From positions 992,001 to 1,056,000 of the forward strand of contig NZ_AP018052.1 of assembly GCF_002356355.1 (NCBI RefSeq): a stretch of 64,000 nt of DNA. The letters run 5' to 3'. The stretch is from Thiohalobacter thiocyanaticus (GTDB lineage Bacteria > Pseudomonadota > Gammaproteobacteria > Thiohalobacterales > Thiohalobacteraceae). A program made the translations under genes and the position numbers. Of the stretch, positions 31,621 to 60,877 are shown in pieces. Under the pieces are notes generated by a model. It saw only the letters and a list, made by a program, of their open reading frames with translations, did not search any database and had not been told where the DNA came from. Position 1 is the first letter of the stretch. Every line of letters begins with the position of its first letter.

Positions 31621-31829
31621 AACGCAGAGGACGCGGAGGCGCGGAGAAAACAGAGAATTGCCGGGTGTGGTATGCAGGTCGGGTTAGCCCGCAGGGCGTA
31701 ACCCGACGCCTGTCCTCGTGCCTGTCGGGTTACGCTGCCGCTAACCCGACCTACGTGCCTGCACGCTTATGTAGATTCTTTGATTTCAATAACTTTGCGC
31801 CTCTGCGTCTTTGCGTTCTCTGCGTTTCC
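31621..31829. repeat. Nested repeat: CGCAGAG/CGCAAAG outer arms around a GTCGGGTTAG palindrome
   Basis: The outer arms (31621-31654 and about 31793-31827) are imperfect complements of the CGCAGAG...GCGCGGAG type. Between them lies the palindrome AGGTCGGGTTAG (31676-31687) ... CTAACCCGACCT (31741-31752), each side again a small hairpin. The gap between ppc and glgA holds nothing else recognisable. Confidence 0.65.
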
Positions 31830-40010: not shown

Positions 40011-40994
40011 TTGACCCAGAAACCCAAAGCCTGTGATTTCCTGCTGGAACCGCCCGACAACGAGCGGCTGGCCAGTCTGTGCGGTCAGTTCGATCAGCAC
40101 CTGCGCCAGATCGAGCGCCGGCTGGGGGTGGAGATCAACAACCGCGGCAACCAGTTTCATGTCATCGGCGAGGGCCGGGCCCCGGAGGTTGCCGGCGATG
40201 TACTGCGCCATCTCTATGCCGAGGCCGAGGGCCGGATCCTGACCCCGGCCGAGGTGCATCTTGCCCTGCAGCAGGCCAATGCCGAACTCGAGGCCGAGCC
40301 CGAGGCGGAGCAGGTCGCCGAGGTGCGCATCCGCACCCGCAGCGGCACCATTCATGGCCGCGGGACGAACCAGCGCCAGTACCTGGCCTGCATCCGTGAC
40401 CACGATCTGAGCTTCGGTATCGGCCCGGCCGGCACCGGCAAGACCTACCTCGCCGTGGCCAGCGCCGTTGCCGCACTGGAACAGGAGCAGGTGCGGCGCC
40501 TGATCCTGGTGCGCCCGGCAGTGGAGGCCGGCGAGCGGCTGGGTTTCCTGCCCGGCGATATGGCGCAGAAGGTCGACCCCTACCTGCGCCCGCTCTACGA
40601 CGCCCTGTACGAGATGCTGGGCTTCGACAAGGTGAGCAAACTGATCGAGCGCCAGGTGATCGAGGTTGCCCCGCTGGCCTTCATGCGCGGGCGCACCCTG
40701 AACGAGTCCTTCATCATCCTGGACGAGGCCCAGAACACCACGGTGGAGCAGATGAAGATGTTCCTCACCCGCATCGGCTTCGGCTCCACCGCCGTGGTCA
40801 CCGGCGACGTCACCCAGGTGGACCTGCCGCGAGGCACCGTCTCCGGTCTGCGCCACGTGGTCGACGTGCTCAAGGAGGTCGAGGGCGTGAGCTTCACCTT
40901 CTTCAGCGCCCGCGACGTGGTGCGCCATCCACTGGTGCAGCGCATTGTCGCCGCCTATGCCCGCCAGGACCCGGCGGGCGGAGAGGGCGCGTGA
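40011..40994 (+). CDS. ybeZ: PhoH-like ATPase YbeZ
   Basis: A 327-residue P-loop protein of the PhoH family, a partner of the YbeY endoribonuclease. Walker A is [13 protein letters not shown] and Walker [12 protein letters not shown]. The N-terminal KH-like region and the central [11 protein letters not shown] segment are typical. It starts with TTG at 40011 and has no good ribosome site, so translation may be weak or the real start a few codons later. It ends in a four-base overlap with ybeY (GTGA). Confidence 0.94.
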
Positions 40995-41473
40995 GCGCGG
41001 CCGCGGTATCGCAACCGGCCCTGGTGCTGGACCTGCAGATCGAGACCGGCGCCGGCGATGTGCCGTCCGCGGCCGATTTCCAGCGCTGGGCCGAGGCCGC
41101 CTGGCGCGGCGACGGGGGCGCGGAACTGACCCTGCGCCTGGTTGACGAGGCCGAGAGCGGCGAACTGAATCAGGCCTATCGGGGCAAGGAAGGGCCCACC
41201 AATGTGCTGTCCTTCCCGGTCGACGCCGCCGAACTGCCCGGCCTGGAGCTGCCGCTGCTGGGCGATCTGGTGATCTGCGCCCCGGTGGTTGCGCGCGAGG
41301 CCGCCGGCCAGGGCAAGACCGCCGAGGCCCACTGGGCCCATATGGTGGTGCACGGCATGCTGCACCTGCAGGGCTACAATCACCTCGAAGCGGCCGAGGC
41401 CGAGGTGATGGAAAGGCTTGAAACCGACATCCTGCGCCGCTTAGGCTATCCCGACCCTTACCGGGAGGAGTGA
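40991..41473 (+). CDS. ybeY: Endoribonuclease YbeY
   Basis: A 160-residue zinc-dependent RNase for rRNA maturation and quality control. The metal motif is His121-x3-His125-x5-His131 in [27 protein letters not shown] and LLGDLVIC are family blocks. It begins with GTG inside the ybeZ stop. Confidence 0.95.
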
Positions 41474-41484
41474 AGTGTTCAAGA

Positions 41485-41661
41485 GCGCCACGGAATACAC
41501 GGAAAGCACGGACAATTTCATTATTGCTTGGTAGGTCGGGTTAGCGCAGCGTAACCCGACAGGTTCGGCGCCAATGTCGGGTTACGCCCTGCGGGCTAAC
41601 CCGACCTACATATGGTGGGACAATTTTTATTTGTCCGTGCTTTCCGTGTATTCCGTGGCGC
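41485..41661. repeat. Nested repeat: perfect 31-base outer arms around a GTAGGTCGGGTTAGC palindrome
   Basis: The outer arms (41485-41515 and 41631-41661) are perfect 31-base complements of the type GCCACGGAATACACGGAAAG. Inside them lies the palindrome GTAGGTCGGGTTAGC (41531-41545) and its complement (41595-41609), each half also a small hairpin. It separates ybeY from corC. Related outer arms occur at 50375 and 54152. Confidence 0.85.
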
Positions 41662-41736
41662 ATTTGACTTTAAGGGATCAGATCACAGTTTATTCCCCTG
41701 GATGAGCTGTCATGTGTTCCCTGACCTGAAACGACA

Positions 41737-42615
41737 ATGAGCGAAGACCGATCTAGCAACGGTTCCACCCAGCGCAACTGGTTCGAGCGCATCAGCCAGG
41801 TGCTGCTGGGGGAGCCGAAAGACCGTGAACAACTGGTGGAGTTGCTGCGCGATGCCCAGGCGCGCAACCTGCTGGATGCCGATGCCCTGGCCATGATCGA
41901 GAGTATCCTGCAGGTCTCCGAGATGCAGGTGCGCGACATCATGATCCCGCGGGCACAGATGGTGGTGGTGCGCCGCGACGCCTCGCTGGAGGAGATCCTG
42001 CCGACCATCATCGACTCCGGCCACTCCCGCTTTCCCGTGATCGGCGAGAACCGCGACGAAGTGGTCGGTATCCTGCTGGCCAAGGACCTGCTGCGCTATC
42101 GTATCCAGCCGGAGGAGGCGTTCAGCATCCGCGACAGCATGCGGCCGGTGGTCTTCATCCCCGAAAGCAAGCGGTTGAACGTACTGCTCAAGGAATTCCG
42201 TCTCAGCCGCAACCACATCGCCGTGGTGGTGGATGAGTACGGCGGTGTCGCCGGCATGGTCACCATCGAGGACGTGCTGGAGCAGATCGTGGGCGAGATC
42301 GCCGACGAGCACGACATCGAGGAAGGCGTGTTCATCCTGCAGCGCTCCGAGACCAGCTACATGGTTAAGGCGCTGACTCCGATCGAGGATTTCAACGAGT
42401 ATTTCGGCACCGACTTCAGCGACGAGGAATTCGACACCGTCGGCGGCCTGGTCGCGCACGAGTTCGGTCACCTGCCCAAGCGCGGTGAGTCGGTGGTGAT
42501 GGGACGTTTCGTGTTCAAGGTCACCCGCGCCGATAACCGCCGCATCCATCTGCTGGCCCTGGATATCCGGGAGGAAGCCGATACCCCGGTCATGACGGGG
42601 CCGGGCGGGGCATGA
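41737..42615 (+). CDS. corC: CorC/YbeX family CBS-domain protein
   Basis: A 292-residue protein: two CBS motifs (about 65-190, beginning VRDIMIPRAQMVVV) and a C-terminal transporter-associated CorC/HlyC domain (YMVKALTPIEDFNEYFG... to the end). It binds ATP, is implicated in magnesium/cobalt efflux, and as YbeX in ribosome metabolism. It overlaps lnt by four bases (ATGA). Confidence 0.94.
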   Translation: MSEDRSSNGSTQRNWFERISQVLLGEPKDREQLVELLRDAQARNLLDADALAMIESILQVSEMQVRDIMIPRAQMVVVRRDASLEEILPTIIDSGHSRFPVIGENRDEVVGILLAKDLLRYRIQPEEAFSIRDSMRPVVFIPESKRLNVLLKEFRLSRNHIAVVVDEYGGVAGMVTIEDVLEQIVGEIADEHDIEEGVFILQRSETSYMVKALTPIEDFNEYFGTDFSDEEFDTVGGLVAHEFGHLPKRGESVVMGRFVFKVTRADNRRIHLLALDIREEADTPVMTGPGGA

Positions 42616-45214: not shown

Positions 45215-45229
45215 ATCCTTTATGCAGTC

Positions 45230-45321
45230 CCGTAGGTCGGATTAGCGCAGCGTAATCCGACAGGCGGCGGAGCGTTGCAGCGGGCGTCGGATTACGCCCT
45301 GCGGGCTAATCCGACCTACGG
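45230..45321. repeat. CCGTAGGTCGGATTAGC palindrome
   Basis: Perfect 17-base arms (45230-45246 and 45305-45321), each half also a small hairpin (GTCGGATTA...TAATCCGAC). It lies between the convergent HIT-like and zinc-ribbon genes, without outer arms. Confidence 0.8.
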
Positions 45322-45330
45322 AACCGCCTT

Positions 45331-48745: not shown

Positions 48746-48757
48746 ACGAGGAATGAT

Positions 48758-48791
48758 GTAGCTCGGGTTAGCGCAGCGTAACCCGAGCTAC
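48758..48791. repeat. GTAGCTCGGGTTA hairpin
   Basis: Perfect 13-base arms with an 8-base loop (GCGCAGCG), a single hairpin half-unit of the GTCGGGTTAG family. It lies between leuS and lptE. Confidence 0.8.
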
Positions 48792-48820
48792 GGCCTTCAC
48801 GCTGATAAACAGGATCTTCC

Positions 48821-50374: not shown

Positions 50375-50526
50375 GCCACGGAATACACGGAAAGCACGGA
50401 CAGGTCGAATGCCGTAGGTTGGGTTAGCCCGTAGGGTGTAACCCAACATTCAGACCGCATTCGTTGGGTTACGGCGCTGGCGCGCCTAACCCAACCTACA
50501 GCTGGAAACGCGTGCGATTCCGTGGC
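50375..50526. repeat. Nested repeat: GCCACGGAATACACGG outer arms (right one truncated) around a GTAGGTTGGGTTAG palindrome
   Basis: The left outer arm (50375-50402) is the same sequence as that at 41485. The right one is reduced to ATTCCGTGGC (50517-50526). The inner palindrome has 14-base perfect arms (50414-50427 and 50486-50499) with TTGGGTT instead of TCGGGTT. It separates holA from proA. Confidence 0.8.
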
Positions 50527-50568
50527 GGATTGGTTTTTCCAGCAGCAGACAGGACCCCGTACCGCAGG

Positions 50569-53993: not shown

Positions 53994-54180
53994 CTGCGGA
54001 ATCGCCGTGAAAAACACAACCTTGTAGGTTGGGTTGGGTGCATTAGCGCCGTAACCCAACAAACGCGGCCTGAATGTTGGGTTACGCCCTCCGGGCTAAC
54101 CCAACCTACGAGGTTCGGTGCGGGTATGGAAGCAGCCGGGAAAACGGATACTGTCCGTGTTTTCCGTGTGATTCCGTGGC
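53994..54180. repeat. Nested repeat: GTAGGTTGGGTT palindrome with GCCACGG-type outer arms (left one decayed)
   Basis: Perfect inner 12-base arms (54024-54035 and 54098-54109). The right outer arm (54152-54180) reads TGTCCGTGTTTTCCGTGTG and onward to CCGTGGC. The left counterpart (about 53994-54020) is visibly decayed. It separates maf from rng. Confidence 0.7.
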
Positions 54181-60741: not shown

Positions 60742-60877
60742 CCCGTCATCCCGGTACCGGCCTGCGCCGGCACAGGCTCCGGCCGGGATCCAGATACCAC
60801 GGCGGTTACTGGATTCCGGCCTGCGCCGGAATGACGGGAGACAGGACGTAGGTCGGGTTAGCGCAGCGTAACCCGAC
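60742..60877. repeat. GTCATCCCGG palindrome followed by a GTCGGGTTA hairpin
   Basis: A pair of hairpins of the GTCATCC family (60742-60838, arms CCCGTCATCCCGG and CCGGAATGACGGG) is followed at 60852-60877 by GTCGGGTTA-loop-TAACCCGAC, a half-unit of the second family. The two families sit side by side upstream of tldD. Confidence 0.75.

Follow-up and report, generated by a model that had tools for sequence, protein, structure and literature searches.

A dispersed family of two-armed intergenic elements in Thiohalobacter thiocyanaticus and its association with GxxExxY genes

What is the perfect inverted repeat that lies between ybeY and a corC-like gene in Thiohalobacter thiocyanaticus? The window analysed here is a stretch of 64,000 nucleotides of contig NZ_AP018052.1 (positions 992,001 to 1,056,000), which had been predicted from its letters to hold a pair of 31-base arms enclosing a second palindrome. 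Both were confirmed, at the coordinates given in Table 1. The arms are exact complements with 115 bases between them, and when the comparison is extended to 41479-41667, 35 of 37 arm positions are complementary. The element is intergenic, and its 189 bases, taken as a single strand, fold with -128.9 kcal/mol (z = -15.4). The enclosed palindrome pair is of the GTAG-type REP, a name that follows PMC3733652; Rfam gave matches on the element only below the gathering score, and these lie over the REP (naRNA4). The 24-base core of the arm occurs in three copies in the window, compared with none in 100 shuffles. In the whole genome (3.23 Mb), there are 79 + 80 copies with up to 3 mismatches, while the reversed pattern, used as a control, gives 0 + 0. 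Because of these core counts, in the window against shuffles and in the genome against the reversed pattern, a chance origin of the arms is excluded.

Table 1. Positions of the element, its neighbours, and other arm-bearing elements in the window.
Feature	Position	Strand	Remarks
ybeY, upstream neighbour	40991..41473	+	
Left outer arm	41485..41515	+	three CACGGA units at 41489, 41498, 41507; 9-bp spacing
Interior cargo	41516..41630		reversed in G307; unrelated interior in its place in G308
GTAG-type REP palindrome pair within outer arms	41531..41609		41531-41545/41595-41609 with 41549-41561/41575-41587
Right outer arm	41631..41661	-	exact reverse complement of left outer arm
corC-like gene, downstream neighbour	41737..42615	+	best model NF011675, score below model cut-off
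Second element, CGCAGAG-dialect arms	31621..31826		arms 31621-31646 / 31801-31826, 81% complementary; GTAG-type REP enclosed
Related element	50377..50527		left arm intact (50377-50400), REP inside, right arm a remnant (about 50517-50527)
REP and right arm only	54018..54178		right arm about 54154-54178, CACGGA units on - strand

The feature at 41485-41661 belongs to a large family, with about 80 members in the genome. A scan for pairs covered 391,011 bases, the window and 20 stretches picked around listed copies, and accepted inward-facing neighbouring half-sites less than 600 bp apart. It gave 52 pairs with 21 to 487 bp between the cores; in the unfiltered list of half-sites, a left arm on the plus strand is likewise followed by a right arm on the minus strand, apart from some single arms. 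Most interiors are REP-type palindromes, 49 of the 52 containing one or more of five palindrome motifs; of the other three, one holds a GxxExxY gene, one is a spacer of 21 bp, and one a stretch of 180 bp. Several unrelated palindrome families are enclosed overall, showing that the outer and inner parts are separate families, as had been proposed. They do not always occur together with identical boundaries, since only 21 of the 52 elements hold a GTAG-type REP, and a single compound element was rejected because the interiors vary. Variants in one arm are often mirrored in the partner arm, and left and right arms are more alike within an element than between elements (39 orthologous elements; 2 of 5000 permutations reach this likeness). 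The arm unit can also expand in tandem, as in a long CACGGAATC run at G299:C1:2673794-2673907. Elsewhere in the window, the arms at 31621..31826 are of the type found around the GxxExxY gene of locus L063. More GTAG-type REP units are present at 31669-31759, 45224-45327, 48751-48798, 54018-54115, and 60848-60862, mostly not within CACGGA arms.

Has the element been inserted recently? MITEs are short, occur in many copies, and have terminal inverted repeats, and the family of 41485-41661 shares these properties. The site is occupied in all three genomes of the genus. The element is missing there in seven readable genomes of other genera, which are too diverged to define the junction; in an eighth genome, L138, the site is not visible. 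For orthologous comparison, we used G308, which is T. thiocyanaticus Hrh1. Both flanks of 51 of the 52 pairs are found in it (41 in fetched regions and 10 by a flank query; element 50 has one flank only). None of the 51 sites is empty: 48 have paired arms of the CACGGA family, two have a degenerate arm (elements 13 and 52), and one has an element of the CGCAAAG dialect (46). The outer ends of the arms agree between the species even at sites with differing interiors, for example 24 and 29, and at 15 such sites the arms are more like their orthologs than like other arms (74 of 5000 permutations reach this). No target duplication was seen by eye in the aligned flanks. We rejected a recent MITE insertion because none of the 51 orthologous sites is empty. 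The original prediction had attributed the perfect match of the arms to recent insertion, gene conversion, or functional constraint; the last two were rightly named, while the first, and with it a recently inserted miniature element, is not supported. If a transposase, of the DDE or another type, mobilised a classical MITE family in trans and REPs had inserted inside, this would account for the size, the terminal inverted repeats, the copy number, and the lack of the element at this site in other genera. However, within the genus all 51 orthologous sites are filled, the interiors are not conserved, the flanks lack a visible duplication, no matching DDE transposase was found in a non-exhaustive search, and the gene with matching ends is GxxExxY (see below). 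We consider such a family improbable.

The interiors at these fixed sites have changed. At 41485-41661, the interior of the sister genome G307 is reversed (115/120 aligned in reverse vs 90/112 forward), and that of G308 is unrelated. Judged by the sequence next to the arms, the 48 comparable interiors fall into 20 that are the same in G308, 7 that are inverted (elements 15, 16, 25, 34, 37, 39, and 44), and 21 that are different, with thresholds taken from 2,256 non-orthologous pairs (99th percentile); the different class may include diverged members of the same class, as elements 49 and 51 are on the threshold and 49 is the same by another measure. By that other measure, 14 of 41 sites are the same and 2 are inverted; 21 are unclear, and at 4 no pair was recognised. 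Between species, then, both orientations occur at one site in 7 of 48 cases and at the site of 41485-41661 itself. In invertible DNA elements, the orientation of the interior changes between inverted repeats. Our elements resemble these in having the interior in both orientations at one site, as compared between species, but they occupy many dispersed sites and their interiors are also replaced. We know of no dedicated invertase at these arm sites. At L067, L077, and L084, interiors of G000 resemble those of neighbouring non-orthologous sites of G308 (6 and 7, 28 and 29, and 45 and 47, respectively); from their sequences, it looks as if cargo had moved between nearby elements.

Which gene has ends that match the arms? 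The genome has one Y1 transposase gene above the cut-off, and GTAG-type REPs lie inside many of the elements, so outer arms related to REPs and moved by a resident RAYT could be imagined. However, the arms are three direct units with no REP palindromes, and RAYT as the mover was rejected because the ends around the Y1 gene differ from the outer arms. We regard a compound of this kind as scarcely credible. The Y1 gene, the one clear gene of its type in the genome, lies at L064 between 29-bp inverted repeats (1357-1385 and 2153-2181) that begin AAAGGGGTCGG and are not GTAG REPs, an arrangement like the TIRtrons described in PMC3733652. A gene with matching ends, for which the original prediction had suggested a search, was found, but it is a GxxExxY gene, of the PD-(D/E)XK superfamily, and not a RAYT or classical transposase. 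The genome contains three GxxExxY genes (TIGR04256; PF13366), which score 137-146 bits against a TIGR04256 cut-off of 35, and all three are enclosed by inverted arms of one design in three dialects. The gene at L062, between accB and accC, has the arms of the dispersed CACGGA family; those of the remaining two are of the GCCAAG and CGCAGAG types and share the design.

The same arrangement was seen in other organisms. The searches of the genome, phylum, and family gathered 45 loci, including the three described above, and 33 of the 43 scorable loci have arms that reach a score of 14, where shuffled pairs have a median of 9.5 and a 95th percentile of 19. This score is also reached by 54 of 76 scorable loci in a second, independent set drawn from many phyla, compared with 2 of 64 shifted windows and 15.8% of random pairings across loci of like dialect. 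This set consists of 80 named loci and is biased to this GxxExxY subfamily because they are the best 80 of at least 486 relatives. Among its members, judged by record title, are Desulfobacterota, Chloroflexota, Planctomycetota, Acidobacteriota, Pedobacter, Treponema, and methane-cycling archaea. The loci below the threshold, 22 of 76 and 10 of 43, have weaker arms in some cases and none in others. Typical arm units are CACGGAAnn, CACAGACnnA, CGCAGATnAA, and CGCGAATnAA, with a spacing of 9 or 10. Arm similarity and protein similarity are correlated over 52 loci (Spearman 0.37; 0 of 2000 permutations). All 9 genomes of the CACAGAC dialect have such arms with at most 2 mismatches, as against 0 of 18 others; in some of the nine, the matches lie together on a single contig, where they probably mark the GxxExxY locus.

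At the level of whole genomes, we counted three-fold CRCRRAR repeats, a pattern that covers 9-bp spacing and some dialects only. Among 299 genomes of the phylum, it is present in 37 of 57 with GxxExxY above the cut-off vs 22 of 242 without (p = 6.5e-18). These counts control for relatedness only in part, and they include as copies the arms that flank GxxExxY itself. Within family f33, the figures are 35 of 45 and 10 of 29 (p = 2.7e-4), and outside it the association is weak (2 of 12 vs 12 of 213; p = 0.17). One draft genome, G301, has 66 arm copies and no detected GxxExxY. The gene itself occurs in some recurrent settings. GxxExxY elements lie in the trp operon at L063, L117, L127, and 13 loci among L087-L113. 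In the family of the window, the order is trpE-GxxExxY-trpG-trpD, complete in L063 and L127, and in the 13 loci from the phylum search GxxExxY comes directly after trpD; the strand is always that of the operon. In L297 and L308 (Chloroflexi), there is a biotin-carboxylase-like gene within 3 kb upstream of GxxExxY, and L308 also has an accB-like gene. Distant GxxExxY genes are on 8 plasmid records. No GxxExxY match was found in phage records, and the defence and phage libraries gave weak matches only.

What kind of protein is GxxExxY? The D...ExK residues and the PD-(D/E)XK fold are supported by alignments and a structural model, the fold being assigned by prediction. The AlphaFold2 model (120 aa, pLDDT 96.4) matches SSO0001 (E 5.9e-4; Z 9.8) among many PD-(D/E)XK proteins, and lower matches include Holliday junction resolvases (2wiw, E 3.9e-3; 1gef, Z 7.7); a family missing from the match list is not thereby excluded. 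A search by sequence found no convincing solved relatives. The structural matches indicate a shared fold only; the protein is probably DNA-cutting. Between G000 and G308, dN is 0.067 and dS is 0.356, which points to selection on the protein sequence. The G308 protein (L238) has Gly at the near-invariant catalytic Asp, and the arms of the G308 elements persist.

A GxxExxY gene lies between accB and accC in G000, G307, G308, G299, G305, and the MAG of L239 (accB was assigned by TIGR00531, and accC was recognised from sequence only). In G308, the gene has 88% nucleotide identity to that of G000, with flanks of 89% and 93%. In G307, its identity is only 69%, with flanks of 96% and 93%, and thus the whole element has been exchanged at the fixed accB-accC site, in the line of either G307 or G000. 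Homing endonuclease elements cut the allele that lacks the element and copy themselves in, and homing endonucleases of PD-(D/E)XK type exist, such as I-Bth0305I, which is a weak structural match to the GxxExxY model. The two have in common the superfamily and the exchange of a whole gene-bearing element at a fixed site, and the exchange, as read from these identities, is compatible with homing-type copying. However, the GxxExxY element is bounded by arms that are common to about 80 dispersed elements, and it does not lie in an intron or intein.

Could the host alone account for these changes? General recombination or template switching might maintain the likeness of old inverted repeats and shuffle them, with GxxExxY as a passenger, just one interior among many. 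Repeats of about 30 bp can undergo inversion and exchange without a dedicated enzyme, the interiors are very diverse, and the elements of G308 have survived although its protein lacks the catalytic Asp. Inversion and exchange could therefore be the work of host recombination, and this is the main rival explanation for the dynamics. However, it leaves the association of gene and arms unexplained: a random passenger is not expected between arms at 54 of 76 loci, in many phyla and in different dialects, when 2 of 64 shifted windows give such arms, nor is it expected that all three genes of one genome have arms, each in its own dialect. As an account of the whole, we consider it rather unlikely. 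A transcribed RNA hairpin or terminator that acts on mRNA stability in operons would fit the very stable fold, the mirrored arm variants, and the many elements close behind a stop codon. It does not explain the GxxExxY association, the dialects, the inversion, or the exchange of interiors, and we think it very improbable as the primary function; an RNA role may be a secondary effect.

We suggest instead, with somewhat better than even confidence, that these elements form a system like RAYT/REPIN with an unrelated nuclease, in which a resident GxxExxY gene is accompanied by dispersed ends carrying exchangeable and invertible cargo. The element at 41485-41661 would be a non-autonomous copy of an intergenic element with two arms, in which three 9-10 bp units make up each arm and mark an end, and the cognate gene would be GxxExxY, coding for a small protein of PD-(D/E)XK fold between arms of the same design. 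Most likely, GxxExxY would bind the arm units and nick or cut at the units or at a cruciform that the arms can form. If the two arms of an element were repaired from each other, the interior would flip; if they were repaired from the arms of another element, it would be replaced. Repair of this kind would keep the arms in position and closely matched and yet let the cargo turn over, which here consists of REPs from other families. The association of GxxExxY with the arms is strong; the enzymatic mechanism, with arm recognition, cleavage, repair, and movement to new sites, is inferred.

RAYT/REPIN systems (REPtrons) combine a resident nuclease gene, next to which its repeat lies, with dispersed inverted pairs (PMC3116915, PMC8049555). 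As described in those papers, the pairs have a variable spacer and can form hairpins, and the gene is long kept at a fixed site; the elements described here are the same in these respects, with the L062 gene flanked by the repeat of the dispersed pairs at a site shared by six genomes. By contrast, the enzyme here belongs to TIGR04256/PF13366, with a PD-(D/E)XK fold rather than HUH/Y1, the arms are three 9-10 bp units rather than REP palindromes, and the interiors are long and foreign and change orientation. Because the enzyme and the repeats are unrelated, the GxxExxY system is not a member of RAYT/REPIN and only works like it. In the TIRtrons, as they appear in PMC3733652, a nuclease gene also lies between long inverted repeats that form dispersed families; TIRYT, however, is a tyrosine transposase, whereas here the gene is GxxExxY and the arms are periodic.

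In the open-access literature, we found no paper that links GxxExxY to repeats and none on its function, although a curated model exists; other publications or supplements may contain an earlier mention. In that literature, GxxExxY is reported as the neighbour of a reverse transcriptase gene (PMC8934634) and occurs in a paper on an algal virus genome, and PF13366/TIGR04256 occurs in an algal genomics paper. Six arm sequence strings matched unrelated papers only. Passages of papers on multicopy sequences of Geobacter and Pelobacter (PMC2996986, PMC3543383) contain no such repeats, which their supplements could list. The link between GxxExxY and repeats thus appears to be new, as judged from the association evidence and this literature.

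That the gene is paired with mirrored arms in many bacteria and in some archaea is a hint of a genome-resident repeat system that has so far gone undescribed. More tentatively, and as a possibility to which we give a little less than even weight, GxxExxY proteins could be the enzymes of undescribed, phylum-spanning, genome-resident mobile elements in bacteria and archaea. They would act on inverted arms built from three units with roughly helical spacing and would spread, flip, and swap cargo between fixed intergenic sites, with lineage-specific dialects of protein and arm. The fixed sites are places at which inversion and cargo exchange can be measured, and the dialects allow recognition to be put directly to the test. 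For GxxExxY, a widespread family, a tie to its own repeat population would supply a substrate. If true, this would account for intergenic repeats with a 9-10 bp period, which form a common class, and would add an unrelated type of enzyme to the RAYT/REPIN way of life.
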